A stretch of DNA of 34,899 bases from an uncultured Pelagibacteraceae bacterium (GTDB lineage: Bacteria > Pseudomonadota > Alphaproteobacteria > Pelagibacterales > Pelagibacteraceae): assembly GCA_902567945.1 (NCBI GenBank), contig CACFOC010000009.1:1-34899 (forward strand), read 5' to 3'. Positions 3,129 through 34,604 of the stretch are shown here, in pieces (position 1 is the stretch's first letter; every line of letters starts with the position of its first letter). The notes below the pieces were generated by a model. The model saw only the letters and a list, made by a program, of their open reading frames with translations. It ran no database searches and was not told where the DNA came from. The translations under genes and the position numbers were made by a program.

Positions 3129-3564
3129 TAATAATTTTGTTTAATACCTTTTTGAATTTTAAAACAGAATCAGAATCTGAATTTTTTAAAGCATTATAAA
3201 TTTTTTTCTTTTGTTCAGTAAATATTTCATTAAAAATTTTTTTCCCTTTTTCATTTAAAAAAATATGTCTTTGCCTTGAATCAATTTCTCCTTTTTTAAT
3301 AATAATTGAATTATTTTTTATTAAGTCTTTTAAAATTCTATTCAAACTTTGTTTTGTAATTTTTAATTTATTTAAAAGTCCTGAAATTGTAATTCCATTA
3401 TTCCTTTCAACTAAAATGATGACACGATGATGTGCCGAACCAAAGGAATATTTCTTTAACACTTTTTTGGGGTCCGAATAAGTTTCTCTATAAACGTAAA
3501 ATATTTGTTCTATAAAATCTTTAATATTTTCATCTTTTAAATATAATAATTCTCTCATAATCAA
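3121..3564 (-). CDS. MarR-family transcriptional regulator
   Basis: 147 aa; wHTH ITISGLLNKLKITKQSLNRILKDLIKNNSIIIKKGEIDSRQRHIFLNEKG. Overlaps the response regulator start by 8 bp; MarR + OmpR pairing is reminiscent of petP/petR of other alphaproteobacteria. Confidence 0.88.
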   Translation of the reverse strand: MIMRELLYLKDENIKDFIEQIFYVYRETYSDPKKVLKKYSFGSAHHRVIILVERNNGITISGLLNKLKITKQSLNRILKDLIKNNSIIIKKGEIDSRQRHIFLNEKGKKIFNEIFTEQKKKIYNALKNSDSDSVLKFKKVLNKIINE

Positions 3565-14570: not shown

Positions 14571-15236
14571 ATGGAATTTTTAAATTCTTTAAAAAAAAGA
14601 TCAAAGCATTACAGCAAACCTTTCAGCCATTGGGAATTAAATGAGCCATTAACACAAAATGCGATAAAAGAAATTTGTGAAACTGAAATTACAGATTTAG
14701 TTAAAATGAATATAAACTATGATGGTACAAGAGCCATAGATGGAGGCGAAGGAAAATTTAGATCAGGCTTATCTCATGGAGGAAAGGCAATAAAGTTTAG
14801 GTGCTTTGTTAACAAAGATAATTCAAATAATTTTCCAAATTTAAATAGTTTAGTTCAAGAACTTAGATCAAAAGACATCCATGGCTATATTAGTGAATTA
14901 ATAAAAAAAGATCTTTCAAAATCTTATGTAAGGGTTGAAGTAATATGTGATCGTCAAGGATTTTGGCTAAAACCTCATTGTGATATTAAAGAAAAGTTAA
15001 TTTCTTGTTTATTATTTGCAAATCCATTTAATGAAAATGAAAATCTGGGAACAGACTTTTATGATGAAAAATTAAAAAAAGTCAAAACAGTTCCATACAA
15101 AAATAATTATGGATATTTTTTTACCAGCGGACCAAATACCTGGCATGGGATGGAAAAAAAAAAAATTAAAAGAGAAAGAAGATGTTTGCAAATTAACTAC
15201 GTTTCATTTGAAACTGACTGGAAAGTTAAAACTTAA
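14571..15236 (+). CDS. 2OG-Fe(II) oxygenase-like protein
   Basis: 221 aa; HxD ([18 protein letters not shown]), distal H ([27 protein letters not shown]) consistent with the double-stranded beta-helix triad. Confidence 0.72.
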
Positions 15237-24011: not shown

Positions 24012-24896
24012 ATGATTAAATTACTTTGGAATACTGAATATCAAAATCTACCAGATCCAAACAATCCTACAAAGCAGGATTTAGTGGACAATAAATGGGG
24101 TATTTATCATAAAAAAAATTCTGACAGATGGATTTTTAATATTTTAAAGAATGTAAAATTTAACATTATAGATGATGAAAAAAAATTAAAGAAAGAAGAT
24201 ATTCTTATAATCGTAGATTCTAGTCCAGAAAAGAAAAAAGAATTTTATATAAAACTAAAATTAGCGTGTAATAAAATTTTTCTAATACATTTAGGCGATG
24301 AATCAGGGATACTTGATTTAAGTAGTATTTATGATGGTTTTAACTTTGTTTGGCGATCATTCTGTCTTAGAAGATTTTTTGACAATAAAAAAGTTAAATG
24401 TATACCAATTGGATATAAATCAGGAGTTCATTTAAATAAAGAAATTAAGAAAAAATATAAGTGGTCTTTTATTGGCACTCCACATAGATCAAGTAGACAT
24501 GATTTACTATTTCAATTATCACAAATAAAACCTTCGTTTTGCCATATAACAAAAAAATTTAACGAAAAGATTATTGATAGCTTAGAAATGAGTAAAGTGT
24601 TGTCTTCAACGGAATTTATACCTTGTCCAAATGGTTTCTTTCATCCCGAAACATACAGACTTTATGAAGCTTTGGAATGTGGGTGTATACCAATTGTAGA
24701 GAATGCTTTTCAATACTATGATCGTCTTTTTCCAAATAATCCATTTATTAAAGTCGACAAATGGATAGATGCAAAATCTATAATTAAAGATTGGAACGAA
24801 GAACAAATAAATAAAAAAAGAAAAGAATGTCAATTATGGTGGCATAAATATCAAAAACAACTTCAAGAAGACATACTTAATACAATTACATTATGA
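24012..24896 (+). CDS. Exostosin (GT47)-like glycosyltransferase
   Basis: 294 aa; KYKWSFIGTPHRSSRHDLL and FIPCPNGFFHPETYRLYEALECGCIPIVE resemble the exostosin C-terminal domain. Confidence 0.72.
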   Translation: MIKLLWNTEYQNLPDPNNPTKQDLVDNKWGIYHKKNSDRWIFNILKNVKFNIIDDEKKLKKEDILIIVDSSPEKKKEFYIKLKLACNKIFLIHLGDESGILDLSSIYDGFNFVWRSFCLRRFFDNKKVKCIPIGYKSGVHLNKEIKKKYKWSFIGTPHRSSRHDLLFQLSQIKPSFCHITKKFNEKIIDSLEMSKVLSSTEFIPCPNGFFHPETYRLYEALECGCIPIVENAFQYYDRLFPNNPFIKVDKWIDAKSIIKDWNEEQINKKRKECQLWWHKYQKQLQEDILNTITL

Positions 24897-25237
24897 AAGA
24901 TAGCAAATTAGATAAAATTGAAATATTTATTAAAGAGCAAAAAATTTCTGAGGCTCAATTTGAATTATCAAAATTAGGTAAAGAATATGAAAAAAATCCA
25001 GACTATCTTTTTTTAAGAGGAAAGGTTTTTTATTTAAATAGATTATATTATGCAGCGATAGACGCATTGCTAATAGCTTTAGAATTTGAAAAAAATAATA
25101 AAATTTATAATTTGATCGCTGAAATTTACGGAGTAATTGGAAATAACGAATTAAAAAAAAAAATTATGGATTTAAATTTAAGATCAGAAGCAATCAAATC
25201 GCTAAAAGAACAATTATACGGAATTTATAGAAAATAA
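24893..25237 (+). CDS. Small TPR-like protein
   Basis: 114 aa; helical repeats (YLFLRGKVFYLNRLYYAAIDALLIALEFEKNNKIYNLIAEIYGVIGN) consistent with TPR; ATGA overlap with the upstream gene. Confidence 0.6.
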   Translation: MKDSKLDKIEIFIKEQKISEAQFELSKLGKEYEKNPDYLFLRGKVFYLNRLYYAAIDALLIALEFEKNNKIYNLIAEIYGVIGNNELKKKIMDLNLRSEAIKSLKEQLYGIYRK

Positions 25238-25254: not shown

Positions 25255-26196
25255 CTAATTTTCTTTATAATTTTTTATTTCTTTAATTATATACCTTGGT
25301 CTTCCTCTTGTCTGTTCGTGAATTCTTGCTATATAGAGGCTCGAAATTCCAATTGTAATTAATATTATTCCTGAAAAAAAAGATATTGAGATTAATAATT
25401 GGGTAGTACCTGGTACTGCTAATCCAATAAATTTTTGATAAAAAGCATAAAAAATTAAAATCACTGAAAATAAAAAAGTAATTAATCCTAAAATAATTCC
25501 TAAATATAATGGGGCTAAAGAAAAACTAGTTATGCCTCTAATAAATTCTAAAGTTGGCCCGACCGATGAAAATAGTGGAAATTTAGACTTTCCAGCAGGT
25601 CTACTTTCTAAAACATATTCAACAAAAGTCTGTTTGAAACCAACCCAAACAGACAATCCTCTAACATAGGGATTATATTCATGAGGATTTCTTATATGCT
25701 CTATTGCTCGCCTTGAAATAAGTTTAAAATCCCCAGCATCTAAAGGAAGTGGTATATAAGATAATTTATTTATTATCCTGTAAGCAATCTTAGTTAAGAA
25801 TATTTGTAATTTACTTTCTCCTAACCTTTTAGTTCTGACAGTATGAACTACATCAAAACCATTTTCAAACTTCTCAATAAGCTTAGGAATAAGTTCCGGA
25901 GGGTCTTGTAGATCTGCCTCCATATATATAACACAATCTCCTGAGCAATTATCAAATCCAGCTAAAATACAAGGTGCATTTCCGAATCTTCGAGACATAT
26001 TTATTATTTTTATTGGATATTTTTTTTGAAGATCGATTAATAATTTTTCAGACGAGTCAGAAGAGTCATCGTTTACAAAAATCATTTCATATTTCCAATT
26101 ATTTAACTTTTCAACTGTTTTAGAAACTCTAGACACGAGTTCAGGAATAATCTCTTGTTCATTTCTAAATGAAAATATTATAGAAAGTAATTTCAT
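25255..26196 (-). CDS. GT2 family glycosyltransferase, polyprenyl-phosphate glycosyltransferase (GtrB/DPM-like) with two C-terminal TM helices
   Basis: 313 aa; SIIFSFRNEQEIIPEL, IFVNDDSSDSSEKLL, YMEADLQDPPELIPKL, DAGDFKLISRRA, R.RPRYIIKE tail. Confidence 0.92.
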   Translation of the reverse strand: MKLLSIIFSFRNEQEIIPELVSRVSKTVEKLNNWKYEMIFVNDDSSDSSEKLLIDLQKKYPIKIINMSRRFGNAPCILAGFDNCSGDCVIYMEADLQDPPELIPKLIEKFENGFDVVHTVRTKRLGESKLQIFLTKIAYRIINKLSYIPLPLDAGDFKLISRRAIEHIRNPHEYNPYVRGLSVWVGFKQTFVEYVLESRPAGKSKFPLFSSVGPTLEFIRGITSFSLAPLYLGIILGLITFLFSVILIFYAFYQKFIGLAVPGTTQLLISISFFSGIILITIGISSLYIARIHEQTRGRPRYIIKEIKNYKEN

Positions 26197-26203
26197 AATT
26201 TCT

Positions 26204-26914
26204 TTATTTTTTTAAAATAAATTTTTTTTTTTTAATTAAATGTAAAGCTTTTTTTGAAGGAAGCCCAGTTATTTGGCAAGTCCATTTAGGAGAAATTCCA
26301 ACATTTGCTGATAAATGATACATTCCATAATTCCAAGTATATATATCTCCAGCTTTCCATTGAGAAAGAACATTATTACCCACTTGGATTATATGCCCCC
26401 AATCCCAATCTTCTAAAAATAATAAATATCTTTTTATTTTCTTTGAATCTGCATTATTTAAATTTCCTTTTTTTTTTACTCCACCGTATGCATCAAAATG
26501 CCAAGGATTTGTATTTCCTGGATTTTGTTTGAAGCAAGCAATAGTCACATAATCTAGTCCACAGATATTTTTTAGTTTATCAAATTCTTCTGGCAGCTTG
26601 TCTCTATTATCTATCCACTGAGTATATTTAGAGTTATGTTCATTATAACCATGTTTTATATGATCTAATTTTGATGCAGCTTTACTTTCAGGATGTAATT
26701 GAGTTGGAATTAACTTTCCATTCTTAATATCTTCTTTATAAAGTTCAGTAGAAATTTCCTCTTTTTTTTTTTCGAGTTTTTCTTTTATTTTAGAAAAATC
26801 AAAATTCATAATTCTACCAACATATTTACAATCTTTAGATTTAACAGATGGATTATAATGCCAATCTTTTTTTGATTTTTTATATTCTAGCAAGCTTTTA
26901 AATTCTTTAGGCAT
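26204..26914 (-). CDS. 2OG-Fe(II)-type oxygenase-like protein
   Basis: 236 aa; PWHFDAYGG (HxD) followed by GNNVLSQWKAGDIYTWNYGMYHLSANVG (distal H); overlaps the PLP gene by 8 bp. Confidence 0.65.
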   Translation of the reverse strand: MPKEFKSLLEYKKSKKDWHYNPSVKSKDCKYVGRIMNFDFSKIKEKLEKKKEEISTELYKEDIKNGKLIPTQLHPESKAASKLDHIKHGYNEHNSKYTQWIDNRDKLPEEFDKLKNICGLDYVTIACFKQNPGNTNPWHFDAYGGVKKKGNLNNADSKKIKRYLLFLEDWDWGHIIQVGNNVLSQWKAGDIYTWNYGMYHLSANVGISPKWTCQITGLPSKKALHLIKKKKFILKK

Positions 26915-27791
26915 TTTTAATACTCATATTTCCCAATAATTTTGAAATACAAACTCTTCTCCACTCTGTTCCTCTGTCATGATCGTTAAACATTTTATTT
27001 TTTTTATCAGTTATACCAAAAATAACGCAGTCGCTAGGATTTAATTTAAGTTCTCTACAAATTTTTAACTGTTTTTCTCTAAAATTGTTTTGATTGTAAT
27101 CAGGTTCAAATTTTTTACACAGTTCATATCCCACTCCGGCTGAAATTTTTGATACCATATCCATACTTGTAAAAATATCTACCGGATCATCGTTATTTAT
27201 TTTTTTACACCTTAGTCCTATTCGCAACCTTTCTGTTCCATAAAAAGCTTTACTCATACTAAAAGATAATCCCTTTATACAAGGTCTATCTAAATCAAAA
27301 TCAATATTCCTGCAAACTGAAAAATAAGCACAATCTATAAAAACTGGAACATTTAGATCGTCACAAATTTTTATAATATTTTCCATTTCAGGATGTTTTG
27401 TCCCACAATCACTAAATGGTAAAGATATTATTAAAGCATCATTTTTTTTTATTTTATCATCTTCAATGTAAGTCCAACCTGGATAATTGTTTCTCCACGA
27501 TAGGGTATGATATTTAAACTCACCTTTAAAGCATCTCATTCTTCTATTTTTATTTTCGGCATAAAAAAAATCAAATGATTGTGTTGTACCATGAACAAAA
27601 CTTAAAGATTTAAATTTTTTCAAACCGTGTAAATTATTTAACTTACTTGACTGTATCCATTCAAAGTAAATATTTAAAAAATTATTTAATATTTTTTCAT
27701 CATGTAAATATTTTGAACTGAGAGATTTTGATATAAATTCAAAAACCTCTTTATTGGGTATTGGACCAGATTTTTTACCATTAAATTTCAT
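26907..27791 (-). CDS. Short PLP-dependent fold-type-I aminotransferase-like protein
   Basis: 294 aa; FVHGTTQSFDFFY, VPVFIDCAYFSVCR and SFSMSKAFYGTERLRIGLR (candidate Schiff-base Lys + Arg) match fold-type-I landmarks. Confidence 0.65.
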   Translation of the reverse strand: MKFNGKKSGPIPNKEVFEFISKSLSSKYLHDEKILNNFLNIYFEWIQSSKLNNLHGLKKFKSLSFVHGTTQSFDFFYAENKNRRMRCFKGEFKYHTLSWRNNYPGWTYIEDDKIKKNDALIISLPFSDCGTKHPEMENIIKICDDLNVPVFIDCAYFSVCRNIDFDLDRPCIKGLSFSMSKAFYGTERLRIGLRCKKINNDDPVDIFTSMDMVSKISAGVGYELCKKFEPDYNQNNFREKQLKICRELKLNPSDCVIFGITDKKNKMFNDHDRGTEWRRVCISKLLGNMSIKNA

Positions 27792-27831
27792 ACTAACCGA
27801 ATATAACAGGAGTATTAAATAACATATGATT

Positions 27832-29985
27832 TCAAGAATTGTGAATTCTTTTATTTTTTTTCAATTCTAAGCTATCGTATTTTTCAAATTTATTAATTTT
27901 ATCAAAAATATTTACCTTATATTTATTTTCAAAATATTCTTTTTTGATCATTTTATTTTTTTCTTCCCTTTTAATTTTTTCTAAGATTTTGTTATCAAAA
28001 TCTATTTCATTTTTTATATTATCACCCTTTCTAGCCCATATAACTTTCCTTCTTGTAAATTCCCAGTAATTATTTTCAAAATTTTTTGTATTTACAGTTT
28101 TTACAGAGTTTTCAATTCTCTTTAATTTTACACTTTTAGAACCAGAATTAACGTAAAATAAATATTCAGCAATATTATATTTGAAATTTACTTGTCTATT
28201 ATCCATATTAATTCTAGGCATTCTTAGATCCTGGTACATAAATATTTCATCAATTATTTCATGGTTTTTTTGCCATTTTTCTTCTCCAACCAGATTTCTA
28301 ACCAAATTTTTTAACTCTCTATAAAAAACACTAAAATTTTGAGAAACTTCTAGAAATATAATTTCTTCAATATCTAAATATACATCACTATATTTTTTAT
28401 TATAAATTGCTCTTCCTTTTCCTTTTAACAGATCTTCTATCCAATTATTAGTTCTGAATATTAAATTAGTATATATAAATGGATGATCTTTTTCGTTTGC
28501 TTGATCACAAATAAATTTGACTAGATCTTTGCCAGATATTTTCAATTCATTAGCTAGATAATTCATAATATAAAATCCTAATTTAAAACTATGAATTACA
28601 AGTAACACTACTGAAAATAAGTTGCTTTTTTTCCAATCTTTCTTATTCATAGTTGATGTTTCTATTACAATTTCTTCATATTCTCTCAACCACTCTTGTT
28701 CTCTTGGCGAACAGTGAGTTTCTAGCAACTCTATTTTTTTAGTTTTGATACCGTGTTTTTTTTTGTAAGATTCTTCATTCAGTTCAGTATTTGGATAAAC
28801 TTGTGTTTGGTAAATAAATATGTGGTTATTAATATTAGAATGTAAAAGATATCCTAATCCGTCTATCCAACTTTCATAAGTTTCCCCAGGTAATCCCAAG
28901 ATCATTTCTGCATAAACAGGTATTTTTAAACTATTAAATCTTCTTTCTAACTCAGAGTAAGGTTCTAATTTAATATTATCTCTTTTGACATTTTTAAGAG
29001 CTTCTTTCGAATTAGATTGTCTTGCTAATGTAATTCCCTTTTCTAAATCGTAAACATGAAGCATATTTGCTATTTTAAAAATTTGTTCGCTAGTATTTTT
29101 TCCCCAACAAGTTCTAAATTTTTCCGGGTATCCAGATTCAATTTTTTTTTCAATTAATTTTTCAGCAATTTTTATATCCCTTCTGTGCATACCAAAATTA
29201 GAATCAGCATTAAAAAGATATTTTATTTTTTTTTTCGCCACCCAATCTATTTCAGCAAAAACACGTTCTAGTGAATGAAATCTGTATTTCGTAGTATTTC
29301 CTCCTTTTCCCCAATAGCAATATGTACAAAGAAAAGGACAGCCTCTGTTAGTTTCTATAATAGCTTGATAATTATGGTTATTTACATCTTTTACTAAATA
29401 ATCAAATTCTCCTTCCAGGTAAGGTGATGGGTATATATCCATATCTTTAATAAAAGGAAATTTTTCATAATTTATAATGCATTTTTTTGATTTTTGATCT
29501 CTAAAAGCTACATTTGGAATTTTTGAAAAATTTGATTTATCTTCAAGATATCTTAAAAGTATTTCATTAAATGCATCCTCACCCTCAGCTCTAATAGCAA
29601 CATCTATAAATGGATAATTTTTAAAATATTCATCTGGCTGGTGTGGACAACTAGCGCCTCCAAATATAATTAAAGTTTTAAATTTTTCTTTTAAAATTTT
29701 TGCAACTCTTAAGCATAACTGTTCATTCCACATTGCAATAGAAAAAACAGCAATATGAGGAATTTCTTTATAGTAATTTTTTATTATATTTTCTGGTGTT
29801 TCTGGATGAAAAATAAATTTATGAAATTTAAAATTATTTTTAATTTTAACATTTTTCTTTGCATTTGCAGATAAAATTCCCGATACAAGAGGAAGGTAAG
29901 TTACTCCCCCCGAGCCCATAAGCAAGTTGTATTCATTAAAAAAAACATTAATTTTTTTTATACTATTATTCTGATTCATTAACAC
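27832..29985 (-). CDS. B12-binding-domain radical SAM protein
   Basis: 717 aa; N-terminal Rossmann-like B12-binding region (VAKILKEKFKTLIIFGGASCPHQPDEYFKNYPFIDVAIRAEGEDAFNEIL), then NRGCPFLCTYCYWGKGG (CX3CX2C), GLPGETYESWIDGLGYLL, and a ~250-aa C-terminal extension. Confidence 0.9.
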   Translation of the reverse strand: MLMNQNNSIKKINVFFNEYNLLMGSGGVTYLPLVSGILSANAKKNVKIKNNFKFHKFIFHPETPENIIKNYYKEIPHIAVFSIAMWNEQLCLRVAKILKEKFKTLIIFGGASCPHQPDEYFKNYPFIDVAIRAEGEDAFNEILLRYLEDKSNFSKIPNVAFRDQKSKKCIINYEKFPFIKDMDIYPSPYLEGEFDYLVKDVNNHNYQAIIETNRGCPFLCTYCYWGKGGNTTKYRFHSLERVFAEIDWVAKKKIKYLFNADSNFGMHRRDIKIAEKLIEKKIESGYPEKFRTCWGKNTSEQIFKIANMLHVYDLEKGITLARQSNSKEALKNVKRDNIKLEPYSELERRFNSLKIPVYAEMILGLPGETYESWIDGLGYLLHSNINNHIFIYQTQVYPNTELNEESYKKKHGIKTKKIELLETHCSPREQEWLREYEEIVIETSTMNKKDWKKSNLFSVVLLVIHSFKLGFYIMNYLANELKISGKDLVKFICDQANEKDHPFIYTNLIFRTNNWIEDLLKGKGRAIYNKKYSDVYLDIEEIIFLEVSQNFSVFYRELKNLVRNLVGEEKWQKNHEIIDEIFMYQDLRMPRINMDNRQVNFKYNIAEYLFYVNSGSKSVKLKRIENSVKTVNTKNFENNYWEFTRRKVIWARKGDNIKNEIDFDNKILEKIKREEKNKMIKKEYFENKYKVNIFDKINKFEKYDSLELKKNKRIHNS

Positions 29986-30283
29986 TTAATTCTCCACGAA
30001 CTTTATTAATAAATTTTGATAGAATCTCTCTTTCTTCGGGTGAAAAAATACTTTCTTTTTGGTTAGCTGACTTAATTTCATCTTTTATTTTATTTAAAAT
30101 TTCTTGTCTTCCTTGTTTATTATAAAGGTAATTTTCTACTTTGCCTTCATAATCTTTTAATATTTGTCCTAAGGTGAATTGAAAAAGCAAATAAGAAGCA
30201 ATTAGTACAATTAAAGTTTTATAAATAAATAATTTCATGAAAATATTTCTATAAATATTAAGGCATATTATATTTAAAATCAA
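29966..30283 (-). CDS. Small single-TM hypothetical protein
   Basis: 105 aa; hydrophobic FIYKTLIVLIASYLLFQFTLGQIL then charged helix; overlaps the radical SAM gene start by 20 bp. An internal Met (MKLFIYK) is the more likely start (~30238). Confidence 0.6.
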   Translation of the reverse strand: MILNIICLNIYRNIFMKLFIYKTLIVLIASYLLFQFTLGQILKDYEGKVENYLYNKQGRQEILNKIKDEIKSANQKESIFSPEEREILSKFINKVRGELSVNESE

Positions 30284-30294
30284 TTCAAATAAGT

Positions 30295-31929
30295 TTAATA
30301 CTTTTTATAAATTGTATTGATTGAAATGCCATCGATTTTTATTTCATGAAATATTTCAAAATTTTTTGGAGCAATAAATTCATCAGGTCTTGTTATGCCC
30401 CTCCAATCTCTGAAATTATTAATAATATAATCAGCATCATTAATATCGTTAGTTATTGAGATTTTTTGTCTATTAGTATTTTTAAGAATATTTTTACTTA
30501 GGTTAAGATCGGTTGTGCTTAAATTAAAAATTTTTACTTTTCCATCTTCTTTTTCAGCAATATATTCTAAGGCGTGTTTGTTACTTGTTCCTGAAAAATC
30601 CATCTCAAATTTTTTATTAAAATTCTTTCCAGCGAAAAAATTAAAATAAATATTTTGGTGCGGGTGATTTTTATACATCCAGTAGATATTAGGAATAATT
30701 AAGGCTAATATTAATATATATAAATAATTATTTTTTTTTTTAAAAAAATAAATCCTTATCAAATTTAGACCAAACATAGAAATTAATAATAAACTTGGGT
30801 AGATGAAAAAAAGATGTCTCCAACTATCATAAGAAATTGATTTAAAATTGACTGCAACTATTAGAGGAATAATAAAAGTTAATAAGAAAATTAAATCCTG
30901 TAACTCTCTATTGCTTCTCCACAAATCTATATATGAATCATTTTTTTCTATTTTTAATAATCTCTTTGTCGTTCTTAAAAAAAGAAAAATAAAACCTATG
31001 GCAAATAAAGATAAATATAATAAAGGTGTGCTAACTAAAATCCAAACCAAATGATAATGCCACGGTGGGTTAGTTGCAAATATGTATTGACCTAAATAAA
31101 AAGTATGTATGGTAAGAATATGGTCACCAAGGAACTTAAAAGAAAATAAAAAATTTTTTAAAGGATCGCTCCATAAAAATGGCCAAAACAAAAATATAAA
31201 AACTGGAAACAATATTAAAAAAGTTATTAGAGGATTTATATTTTTTTCTTTATTTTTTTCGATCCGGAAAATATTTATAATATAAAAAATTATAATTATA
31301 GAAGGTAATATTAAGCCTAAAATTCTCACATTAATCATAAGTGCAGAAAAAATTGCAAATATTGTGCTAGTTTTATAATTTGGTTTTTCTAAAAAATTTA
31401 TTGCTAAATATAAATTGATTATAAAAAAGGACATAAAAATTATATCCTTATTATTATAAAAACTATTGGCAAATATTTTTGGACTTGCTACTAACATTAT
31501 AGTGCCAAGAATAGAAATAATCCAAGAATTGTATCTTTGTTTTATTAATAAATAAAAAAAATAAGAAGATATGAAAAAAAATAAAAAAGTAGAAAAGTGT
31601 CTTAATAAATAATATTGCCTACTATCTTCAATTTGGAAAATAAATTCCAAAAATGCCATAGGGAGATCAAATGCGACACCAGAAGTTGGAATTATATCTA
31701 GACTTGGATGCTCAGACAACTGTCCTGAAATAATTTCTTTAATTTTTGGTATATTTTCCGGTGAAAAAATTTTAAATACAGATTCAAGTGACAAAAATCC
31801 AACAACTCTAGTATTGTCTTCATCTATTGATATTCCATAATCTGAAAATATAAAAATTCCAATAAAAAAAAATATTACAAAAAATATAAATGTTAGTAAT
31901 TTGTTATTTGAATTTAAAAATGTTGACAT
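30295..31929 (-). CDS. GT39/PMT-like multi-spanning membrane glycosyltransferase
   Basis: 544 aa; early acidic pair in GISIDEDNTRVVG, ~10+ hydrophobic segments, SPKIFANSFYNNKDIIFMSFFIINLYLA typical of GT39-like proteins. Confidence 0.78.
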   Translation of the reverse strand: MSTFLNSNNKLLTFIFFVIFFFIGIFIFSDYGISIDEDNTRVVGFLSLESVFKIFSPENIPKIKEIISGQLSEHPSLDIIPTSGVAFDLPMAFLEFIFQIEDSRQYYLLRHFSTFLFFFISSYFFYLLIKQRYNSWIISILGTIMLVASPKIFANSFYNNKDIIFMSFFIINLYLAINFLEKPNYKTSTIFAIFSALMINVRILGLILPSIIIIFYIINIFRIEKNKEKNINPLITFLILFPVFIFLFWPFLWSDPLKNFLFSFKFLGDHILTIHTFYLGQYIFATNPPWHYHLVWILVSTPLLYLSLFAIGFIFLFLRTTKRLLKIEKNDSYIDLWRSNRELQDLIFLLTFIIPLIVAVNFKSISYDSWRHLFFIYPSLLLISMFGLNLIRIYFFKKKNNYLYILILALIIPNIYWMYKNHPHQNIYFNFFAGKNFNKKFEMDFSGTSNKHALEYIAEKEDGKVKIFNLSTTDLNLSKNILKNTNRQKISITNDINDADYIINNFRDWRGITRPDEFIAPKNFEIFHEIKIDGISINTIYKKY

Positions 31930-32047: not shown

Positions 32048-32124
32048 GGGCCTGTAGCTCAGCTGGTCAGAGCAGTACACTCATAATGTATTGGTCCCAG
32101 GTTCGAATCCTGGCGGGCCCACCA
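32048..32124 (+). tRNA. tRNA with CAU anticodon (elongator Met, or Ile2 if lysidine-modified); CCA encoded
   Basis: Full cloverleaf read by eye: acceptor GGGCCTG/CGGGCCC, D arm AGCTCAGCTGGTCAGAGCA, anticodon loop CTCATAA, T arm CCAGG-TTCGAAT-CCTGG, A73, CCA. Confidence 0.95.
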
Positions 32125-32137
32125 AATATATAAAAAT

Positions 32138-33010
32138 ATGGCAAATATATTTTCAATGGTTACTTTAAAAGGTTCTAATTTTTATACGAAATATGCCATT
32201 AAATCTTTTTTTCAAAATACTAAATTAGAAAATGAAGATGAATTTTTATTAATAAATAATGATCATTGTAACACTGATGAGTTTTCTATTTATAATAGGA
32301 TAAGAATAATTAATAATGAAACACCATTTAGCTTTGCAGAAAATGTAAACCAAGGGATTAGTCTTGCTATAAAAAATAAAAAAAATCTTATTTTTTTAAA
32401 CAATGATATAATTTTTACAAAAGATTGGTTTAATCCTTTAAAATTAGAGTTAAAAAACATATCTATTCCAGTATCAAATCAATTATTTCAATATAATTCA
32501 GCTTGTGAAAAATTGAAATTAATCCCCACAATGCGATTTGACCAATTTAATGAAAATTATGATTTGCTAAATGATATTACAGCAGCGCATAAAAAAAAAT
32601 TTAAGGCAAATCAAAAATTTCAAACTTTGTTAATGCCATTTTATTGTTTTAAATTACCTTACGACATATTAAATAAAATAGGATATTTTGATCAGTCTTT
32701 CGGCAAAGGAGGCGGGGAAGATATTGATTATAGAATCAGGTGTGCAGTTAAGGGATATGAGGTTAATTTTTTATTGGATAGCTATCTGCTTCATTTTCAT
32801 GGAAAATCAACATGGGACGGAATTGAAAGCAAGCAAGAAACTGAAGAAAGAAATAGAATATATATAAACACTTTCAAAAAAAAATGGGGAGAAGAAATAA
32901 CACAAATATTTATAATGAGAAATAATTTTTCCAATATACTATCTAAACAGAAAATTGAAGATGAATTTAAACAAAGAAAATTTGGTGAATTAATTAGAAA
33001 ATTATTATAA
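32138..33010 (+). CDS. GT2-like glycosyltransferase
   Basis: 290 aa; NLIFLNNDIIFTKDWFNPL, FGKGGGEDIDYRIRCAVKGYEVNFLLDSYLLHFHGKST. Confidence 0.85.
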   Translation: MANIFSMVTLKGSNFYTKYAIKSFFQNTKLENEDEFLLINNDHCNTDEFSIYNRIRIINNETPFSFAENVNQGISLAIKNKKNLIFLNNDIIFTKDWFNPLKLELKNISIPVSNQLFQYNSACEKLKLIPTMRFDQFNENYDLLNDITAAHKKKFKANQKFQTLLMPFYCFKLPYDILNKIGYFDQSFGKGGGEDIDYRIRCAVKGYEVNFLLDSYLLHFHGKSTWDGIESKQETEERNRIYINTFKKKWGEEITQIFIMRNNFSNILSKQKIEDEFKQRKFGELIRKLL

Positions 33011-33015
33011 TTTTA

Positions 33016-33993
33016 TTATTTTCTTATTTCATCAAAAAATTTTTTCCATTCGATAGACCTAACATCCCAAGAATATAAATAATTGATAGACTGGCGTTGA
33101 AGTTTAAGTTTTTCTTGATTTTCTTTTGACCAAAAGTTTTCAATACTGTTAAGAAGAGTTTTTCCATATTTTTTTTCTAAATTTTCAAAATTTCTATCAA
33201 ATCCAACAAAAGTTCCAAAAGGCGCACAAGTTTCATAAAGTGCTCCTAAATTTGTTGTAACTATTTCACAACCTGCTGCCATAGATTCAATTGCTGAAAT
33301 GCAGCTCGTTTCTGGCCATATACTTGGAAAAGAATAAATGTGTGTTTTTTTTAGCAATTCAATTATTTTTTTGTTTTCAACAAAACCCAAATAATTAACA
33401 TTTTTCAAATTTTTGCATTCATTGAATAAATTTGTATATTGCTTAGCATAAACACTATCAAAGCTCTTTCCATAGATTTTTGTTGAAGAACAAACATTAA
33501 GCTCAACATTATTTTTTAAATTTAAATTCTTAAAAATATTTAACAAATTAGCCAAACCTCTCCAAGGAGTTGTGTGATAAATTAAATTTATTTTATCTTT
33601 TGGTTTTTCTTGGAATTCAATTTTTTCGATAGCGTTTTTGATTACTAATGATTTGGTTTCTGGTATTTTAAATTGATAAACAAATTTTTCGAAGTTCCAA
33701 TTAGAATTAAATACTATATAATCTATTTTATCTGTATAATCTTTTGAACCTAAATTTTGAGCTTCTTTTTGGTTAACAAAGTGTTGCATCCAAAGTACAT
33801 TAATTCTTTCTTTTTCCAATAAGTCATAATCAGTATTATTTAGGATTAAATTTATGTTTTTAAAACTCTCATCTGGAAGATACTTTAGTAAAAGTCTTAG
33901 CTGACTTTCACTTCCACCAGAAGACTCATTAAATACTATTGGTCTAGTTGAATCATTATTTAGTTTTTTTATAATTCTAGATTTTTCTTCCAC
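33016..33993 (-). CDS. GT4 (group 1) glycosyltransferase
   Basis: 325 aa; KINLIYHTTPWRGLANLLNIF, VNYLGFVENKKIIELLKKTHIYSFPSIWPETSCISAIESMAAGCEIVTTNLGALYE. Confidence 0.88.
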   Translation of the reverse strand: MEEKSRIIKKLNNDSTRPIVFNESSGGSESQLRLLLKYLPDESFKNINLILNNTDYDLLEKERINVLWMQHFVNQKEAQNLGSKDYTDKIDYIVFNSNWNFEKFVYQFKIPETKSLVIKNAIEKIEFQEKPKDKINLIYHTTPWRGLANLLNIFKNLNLKNNVELNVCSSTKIYGKSFDSVYAKQYTNLFNECKNLKNVNYLGFVENKKIIELLKKTHIYSFPSIWPETSCISAIESMAAGCEIVTTNLGALYETCAPFGTFVGFDRNFENLEKKYGKTLLNSIENFWSKENQEKLKLQRQSINYLYSWDVRSIEWKKFFDEIRK

Positions 33994-34010
33994 GGATAAA
34001 ATTTAGTAGG

Positions 34011-34604
34011 CTATTTTTCAACAAATTTTTTTAAACTAATAAATAATTTTTTTACGTCTCCATTATTTGTTTCTATCACCGAAGTAAACTCTTCTTTCTG
34101 AGTTCTTGCTAGGCTTAATCCTTCTATTATTAAGTCTCTAATCAATGGCTTGTCAGGATTTTTCGTGTATACGCGCCAGTCGATTTTAACCTCTGGTTTT
34201 TTATCGGTAGCAAGCAGCAAACTTCTTACTATCGTGTACTTTTCATTTATGATTTCAGCAGAAAGGACTTCAATTTTGGGATCTGAGTAATCTGATAGTC
34301 GAGATGTAAAACTTTTTAAGAAGTATTTTTCAAACAGTTCATGGTACTGATTTAATTCTTCTTCATTAAGTTGTTTTCTATATTTTCCAAGAGAATAATA
34401 TCCCACCCCTTTAATATCAACGGTTTTAAGAGCCATTTCTGATAGTTTTTTTGTTTTAAATTCTTTAGTGTTTGATGCCACGAGTATTTGTTTTGCTTCA
34501 TTAACTATTTCAGTAATAAATTGTTTTGGATCATTACTATATGAAAGACATATATTAGGTACAATAAAAATAAAAAAAGAAACAATGAAAAAATTTTTTT
34601 TCAT
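34011..34604 (-). CDS. mlaC: MlaC/Ttg2D-family phospholipid-binding protein
   Basis: 197 aa, signal peptide; GVGYYSLGKYRKQLNEEELNQYHELFEKYFLKSFTSRLSDY, VDWR-like KIDWRVYTKNPDKPLIRDLIIEGLSLARTQKEEFTSVI. Confidence 0.88.
   Translation of the reverse strand: MKKNFFIVSFFIFIVPNICLSYSNDPKQFITEIVNEAKQILVASNTKEFKTKKLSEMALKTVDIKGVGYYSLGKYRKQLNEEELNQYHELFEKYFLKSFTSRLSDYSDPKIEVLSAEIINEKYTIVRSLLLATDKKPEVKIDWRVYTKNPDKPLIRDLIIEGLSLARTQKEEFTSVIETNNGDVKKLFISLKKFVEK

Follow-up and report, generated by a model that had tools for sequence, protein, structure and literature searches.

A predicted PLP enzyme–Fe(II) oxygenase pair recurs across aquatic phages and lies beside a B12-type radical SAM gene in a putative surface-glycan island of a Pelagibacteraceae bacterium

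We analyzed three consecutive minus-strand genes in a 34,899 nt stretch of DNA (the window), which lies on contig 9 (CACFOC010000009.1) of an alphaproteobacterial assembly of 869 kb that is 72% complete, complete members of its family, the Pelagibacteraceae, being ~1.2 Mb. An initial annotation, made from the letters alone, had read the three genes as encoding a B12-type radical S-adenosylmethionine (SAM) enzyme (hereafter rSAM), a pyridoxal 5´-phosphate (PLP) protein and an HxD...H oxygenase, and had suggested that they act in one pathway supplying an unusual substrate for surface transfer. A six-frame list of open reading frames (ORFs) and their translations placed all three ORFs where they had been predicted, with exact spacings: 40 bp between the rSAM and PLP genes (27792-27831), an 8 bp overlap of the PLP and oxygenase genes (26907-26914) and 7 bp between the oxygenase gene and that of a family 2 glycosyltransferase (GT2) (26197-26203).

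26907-27791, minus strand: predicted minimal fold-type-I PLP enzyme of 294 amino acids (aa), core of the conserved pair (22 homologues; fold search)
26204-26914, minus strand: predicted double-stranded beta-helix Fe(II) oxygenase, probably dependent on 2-oxoglutarate (2OG), overlapping the PLP gene by 8 bp (22 homologues; fold search)
27832-29985, minus strand: predicted B12-dependent rSAM of the KedN5/TokK kind (NF033712, 268 bits; TokK alignment)

PLP proteins 60-65% identical to that of the window were found in IMG/VR viral contigs, and the family then grew to 24 loci. Clustering of the PLP loci at 80% identity, with the addition of loci found through the rSAM, gave 22 non-redundant PLP clusters, which come from aquatic viral contigs and one bacterial (alphaproteobacterial) single-cell genome carrying one PLP copy. 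The oxygenase gene is linked in 19/22 of these loci, and the two genes abut or overlap in 12, with the PLP gene leading in seven (the window arrangement) and the oxygenase gene in five. Both genes are absent from all 80 control viral sugar loci (39 clusters), which were picked by a GDP-mannose-dehydratase-like gene. Alignment queries were required for the viral searches with the oxygenase and the rSAM, single-sequence scans with either giving no matches. The PLP and oxygenase distance matrices correlate across 16 adjacent pairs (Mantel r 0.82, p ~0.0002), and ratios of nonsynonymous to synonymous substitution (dN/dS) of 0.03-0.17 in informative homologue pairs denote purifying selection on both proteins. 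These ratios, together with the 60-65% identity of the homologues, argue that the ORFs are genuine genes and not chance ORFs. Given the linkage, the correlated distances, the low dN/dS and the invariant residues described below, we conclude from sequence comparison that the PLP enzyme and the oxygenase are a conserved functional pair.

Among bacteria, the PLP gene was found only in the source genome when 297 family genomes were sampled and again when 399 genomes of the phylum were searched, while a search of the class added one weak match; the oxygenase profile likewise found only the source genome among 247 family genomes. The PLP family had no match in 50,697 isolated-phage records except a distant relative in Pelagibacter phage Mosig, which is clustered with proteins annotated as Asp/Arg-hydroxylase-like. 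That nearly all homologues sit in viral contigs would suit a module whose target is phage DNA or a virion protein (a tail fibre, for instance), in which case the copy in the bacterium would be a captured phage cassette, re-used or decaying. Some settings fit this idea: the pair stands beside DnaB in one phage locus (L003), among nucleotide-metabolism genes in two (L030 and L031) and beside a tail gene in another (L139), and the Mosig relative is near tail fibre genes. However, we recognised none of the known DNA-hypermodification gene sets next to the module, many phage copies are in sugar clusters and the window copy is intact within a glycosyltransferase operon, and we consider modification of DNA or virion protein improbable.

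The PLP enzyme scores 15.9 bits against Pfam Aminotran_1_2 (cut-off 19.7), with no Pfam family above threshold, no useful NCBIfam and no PHROG match. Despite this weak family score, the initial assignment to PLP enzymes holds, as K181, D153, R190 and R279 are invariant in the 22 homologues; by motif position we take these to be the Schiff-base Lys, the pyridine Asp, the phosphate-binding Arg and a C-terminal substrate Arg, respectively. R279 falls within the Arg motif near the C terminus and, judged by motif position and by what is known of the family, presumably binds the alpha-carboxylate. A fold search with the model gave 444 PDB matches at E <= 0.001 (best 4e-9), the best solved folds being the amino-acid PLP enzymes HisC, threonine-phosphate decarboxylase (CobD), MppP and Plu4. 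The invariant R279 and these fold neighbours of the model point to a substrate of the alpha-amino-acid type.

We also weighed whether the PLP enzyme might instead be a sugar aminotransferase whose substrate is a keto sugar linked to a nucleotide, with the oxygenase and rSAM modifying the resulting amino sugar. Epimerase, DegT and glycosyltransferase neighbours are frequent, epimerases occurring in 14/22 loci, but epimerase richness is equally normal in the control loci. Moreover, sugar aminotransferases are normally of the DegT type, to which this family does not belong, separate DegT genes are present in 4/22 loci and no homologue departs from the C-terminal Arg motif, making such a role quite unlikely. 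Alignment of the PLP profile by hhalign with the class-I aminotransferase encoded elsewhere in the window returned nothing usable.

Two variant arrangements of the PLP gene were seen. In three loci (L037:5485-6861, L038:5485-6861 and L096:13089-14465) the PLP domain has a ParB-like domain (weak PF02195) fused to its N terminus. Some proteins of the ParB fold are free-serine kinases, and the fusion might point to an amino acid substrate that is phosphorylated. One contig (IMGVR_UViG_3300032138_000680; L011 and L036) carries two diverged PLP copies with one B12-type radical SAM gene nearby.

The oxygenase matched no Pfam, NCBIfam or PHROG family. As the initial annotation had proposed, it has an iron triad (H139-x-D141...H200), invariant in the 22 homologues as is R162, and in the fold search its model matched 2OG oxygenases and cupins, including AspH, C-P4H and AsqJ. 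A second putative 2OG-Fe(II) oxygenase in the window (14571-15236, weak PF13640), which adjoins an ELM1-like protein, is unrelated to it; hhalign of the oxygenase profile against this protein gave nothing usable.

For the rSAM, the B12-type radical SAM assignment was borne out. The protein scores 40 bits against Pfam Radical_SAM (cut-off 29.5) and has the cluster motif CxxxCxxC at C216, C220 and C223 (RGCPFLCTYC). The B12-binding Pfam score of 26.6 bits is under the cut-off of 32.1, and we assign the B12 type because residues 24-480 align with TokK (PDB 7kdx, E 2e-72) through the N-terminal cobalamin-binding domain; W86 aligns with TokK W76, and no alignment to TokK extends beyond residue ~480. 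The protein is also related to CysS. Its score against NCBIfam NF033712 (KedN5), 268 bits, is far under the curated cut-off of 700, which by sequence makes it a relative of this subfamily rather than a member; C-methylation is therefore a likely activity. The rSAM has this cluster motif and the W76-position Trp in common with TokK, but its neighbours, unlike those of C-methyltransferases of the TokK, CysS and KedN5 type, are glycosyltransferase genes and not carbapenem, cystobactamid or enediyne genes. Among the proteins, only the rSAM matched a PADLOC defence model (candidate model PDC-M51A, 82 bits), and since no PADLOC protein set was matched beyond this, a defence role was rejected.

Relatives of the rSAM, at 27-36% identity, occur without the pair in 17/196 other family genomes (18/197 with the source genome; ~9%). 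In four of seven fetched family loci (L069, L070, L072 and L074) an AdoCbl-II riboswitch shares the stretch with the rSAM relative, and TonB-B12 is the best model, below cut-off, for the receptors beside the riboswitch in L069 and in a locus of the source genome itself (L240). In this last locus (contig 13, 22000-27832), the riboswitch (3245-3325) precedes the TonB-B12-like receptor, and another B12-type radical SAM gene is just upstream of them. These riboswitches and receptors, including those of the source genome, make a supply of B12 for the rSAM in this host plausible.

We then asked how closely the rSAM is tied to the pair. PLP, oxygenase and KedN5/TokK-type rSAM genes occur together in 17/80 rSAM-anchored viral loci versus 0/80 control sugar loci, and in one phage locus (L144) carbamoyltransferase, PLP, oxygenase and rSAM genes are contiguous in that order. 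The three are thus found together outside this island as well. A KedN5-type rSAM is near the pair in 12/22 loci overall, a set partly ascertained through the rSAM; among PLP clusters found without it, 4/14 have such a gene in the flank, two of them on one contig, leaving three independent cases. By cluster, the PLP gene is present in 8/46 of the rSAM-anchored loci, a proportion biased upward by a query alignment that contained pair-linked rSAMs. The pair also occurs without a KedN5/TokK-type rSAM (L002, L003, L004, L007, L008, L012, L018 and L025-L034), and the viral homologue nearest to the window rSAM shares only ~32% identity with it, the 15 best viral matches all coming from loci that lack the PLP gene. 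We conclude that the same kind of rSAM has been recruited repeatedly beside the pair and that the three genes do not travel as one cassette; a three-gene cassette inherited as a single unit was rejected, as the pair occurs without the rSAM and the window rSAM is not closest to pair-linked rSAMs. Of the single pathway first envisaged for the three genes, co-occurrence in other genomes stands, but the conserved unit is the PLP–oxygenase pair only.

These data also bear on whether the rSAM could be an independent tailoring enzyme that merely landed in the same island as a true PLP–oxygenase pair and acts on a different substrate, perhaps a sugar or lipid. The closest viral rSAMs sitting in PLP-less loci would agree with this, as would the presence of rSAM homologues in 18/197 family genomes versus the PLP gene in the source genome only (297 sampled), several of these homologues adjoining B12-uptake genes or sialic-acid-like sugar genes. 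Since rSAMs of the same type recur alongside the pair on viral contigs far more often than in the control loci, and contiguously in L144, we regard this explanation as less likely than the one we favour below, though it is the strongest of the competing ones.

The three genes belong to a minus-strand block of six (25255-31929), which encodes a membrane glycosyltransferase of the GT-C type, a 105-aa protein, the rSAM, the PLP enzyme, the oxygenase and the GT2. The remaining features of the block and its tRNA boundary are:

30295-31929, minus strand: GT-C type membrane glycosyltransferase (PMT_2 family, 32.9 bits, cut-off 26.1), first gene of the insert, not in the islands of congeners
29966-30283, minus strand: small protein, 105 aa from TTG, with a single hydrophobic stretch (translation)
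25255-26196, minus strand: GT2 polyprenyl-phosphate glycosyltransferase of the ArnC/PgfS type, with C-terminal hydrophobic segments (Glycos_transf_2, 87.9 bits)
32048-32124, plus strand: tRNA-Met (CAT), conserved landmark bounding the insert (ARAGORN; found in all four congeneric islands)

The ORF of the 105-aa protein shares 20 bp with the rSAM ORF, and its product reaches the cut-off of no Pfam family. In the rpoD-MlaC interval of four congeners, the outer genes (24012-25237 and 33016-34604) are kept and the gene at 32138 is retained in one, while none of the six block genes is present and different cargo is found instead. Since the congeners keep the outer genes and the tRNA-Met without the six genes, the block is strain-specific cargo bounded by conserved neighbours and the tRNA-Met, on either side of which island cargo varies among congeners. 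The GC content of the insert genes (0.22-0.29) has no clear difference from that of the flanks, and composition therefore neither supports nor refutes transfer. With the GT2, the GT-C gene and the variable cargo, the surroundings look like a surface-glycan island, in agreement with the setting initially suggested. As in the polyprenyl-phosphate decoration systems ArnC/ArnT and PgfS/PgfM, GT2 and GT-C genes are both present, here flanking three tailoring genes; in contrast to those systems the tailoring enzymes are of three different kinds, and the GT2 scores below both curated cut-offs (NF047588 PgfS, 237 bits against 500; NF007986 ArnC-like, 147 bits against 529). No flippase gene was recognised with the GT2 and GT-C genes of the window.

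In phages the pair has further partners. A StrB1-type amidinotransferase (PDB 1bwd, E 2e-82) is encoded in 8/22 loci, adjoining the PLP or oxygenase gene in several, and in cyanophage S-SCSM2R it adjoins the oxygenase homologue. Thiamine pyrophosphate (TPP) E1-type halves are found in 6/22 loci; split TPP-dependent E1/transketolase-like halves lie beside or near the pair in L004, L007, L010, L023, L027, L096 and L110, and in none of the control sugar loci. A widespread phage cluster combines PLP, StrB1-like amidinotransferase, two oxygenase, epimerase and B12 radical SAM genes (L115, L122, L128, L130, L143, L145-L148 and L157). A small methyltransferase-like gene directly follows the pair in four loci (L008:9501-10052, L018:7510-8070, L004:9583-10125 and L007:9433-10137).

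In VioC/VioD and MppO/MppP, a non-heme iron oxygenase and a PLP enzyme act on one amino acid. By analogy, the pair might make a cyclic or hydroxylated guanidino amino acid, as VioC/VioD do for capreomycidine and MppO/MppP for enduracididine; the cofactor pairing is shared, MppP is among the better fold matches of the window PLP enzyme by TM-score and the amidinotransferase is frequent beside the pair. However, loci selected by way of the rSAM account for part of the amidinotransferase excess (2/14 in the rSAM-blind set, p 0.07), and neither the window nor the found part of the source genome has this gene. The pair differs from the known enzymes in the much smaller PLP enzyme, in genes that are adjacent and overlapping in phages and in the lack of detectable sequence relation, as neither profile had a significant PDB sequence match to the VioC/VioD or MppO/MppP enzymes at the thresholds used. 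We give a guanidino product of this kind little credence.

The reading we favour, with a probability of roughly 0.4, is that the pair produces an unusual group, derived from an amino acid, that decorates a surface glycan, with the rSAM adding C-methylation. The PLP enzyme and Fe(II) oxygenase would form a two-enzyme functional core, their usually adjacent and overlapping genes suggesting coupled synthesis. The PLP enzyme would act on an alpha-amino-acid-type substrate and the oxygenase would hydroxylate or desaturate the same molecule before or after this step, giving an unusual amino acid or amine. The GT2 and GT-C would load and transfer a polyprenyl-linked residue, such that the product of the pair is attached to the glycan, and the B12-dependent rSAM would C-methylate the same substituent or the sugar. 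In phages, the module is found in exchangeable combinations with glycosyltransferases, epimerases, TPP enzymes, B12-rSAMs and StrB1-type amidinotransferases. Gene linkage, conserved active sites, cofactor classes (by homology), the island setting, the distribution in phages and the B12-uptake-type genes of the host genome are what the analysis demonstrates, whereas the substrate class, the reaction order, a pathway shared with the rSAM and attachment to a glycan are inferred.

Several results weigh against this proposal. Foldseek TM-scores of the PLP model are only ~0.5-0.67, from a model built on 10 sequences, and profile searches of solved structures found no significant homologue of the PLP enzyme or of the oxygenase. 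The usual position of the 2OG-carboxylate Lys/Arg (RxS/KxT-like) is K210-x-T212 in the window branch and Phe in others, and thus is not conserved family-wide, R162 being the invariant residue instead. No amidinotransferase is encoded in the window or the rest of the 72% complete assembly. Finally, in phage locus L003 the pair is alone, without sugar genes, and a glycan role is therefore not universal.

Unusual tailoring cassettes are already known from the glycan islands of phages and their hosts. Host-recognition clusters of pelagimyophages and cyanomyophages carry lipopolysaccharide (LPS) glycosyltransferases and radical SAM cassettes as units of gain and loss (PMC7029224), and share with our loci the aquatic T4-like phage context and both gene types; the main text of that paper contains no word starting with oxygenase or aminotransferase, and the pair is not described there. 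Campylobacter phages CP220 and CPt10 have an interchangeable radical SAM gene cluster with a putative glycine amidinotransferase (PMC2853527), similar in joining radical SAM and amidinotransferase genes as an exchangeable phage cluster and different in that the PLP family was not matched in isolated-phage records save the Mosig relative. We found no description of the pair in literature on radical SAM with phage and amidinotransferase, and no named pathway for the three genes, as had been anticipated. Within the literature searched, the PLP–oxygenase pair is undescribed, and it recurs across aquatic phages.

A wider possibility, which we hold to be doubtful, is a phage-borne pathway in which the pair, with a B12 radical SAM enzyme, amidinotransferase or carbamoyltransferase, would make new branched or guanidino amino-acid decorations of cell or virion surfaces, exchanged between streamlined marine bacteria and aquatic phages. 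Many of the radical SAM and oxygenase genes that such phages carry close to genes for host recognition and sugars lack an explanation, and a tightly linked two-gene core with clear cofactors, assigned by homology, offers a small, expressible entry point to this dark matter. If the product decorates surfaces, it would bear on the part that surface chemistry plays in the contest between phages and the most streamlined marine bacteria, and, if the role proposed for the rSAM is true, would mean that an organism whose genome apparently provides for B12 import also uses B12 in building its surface.

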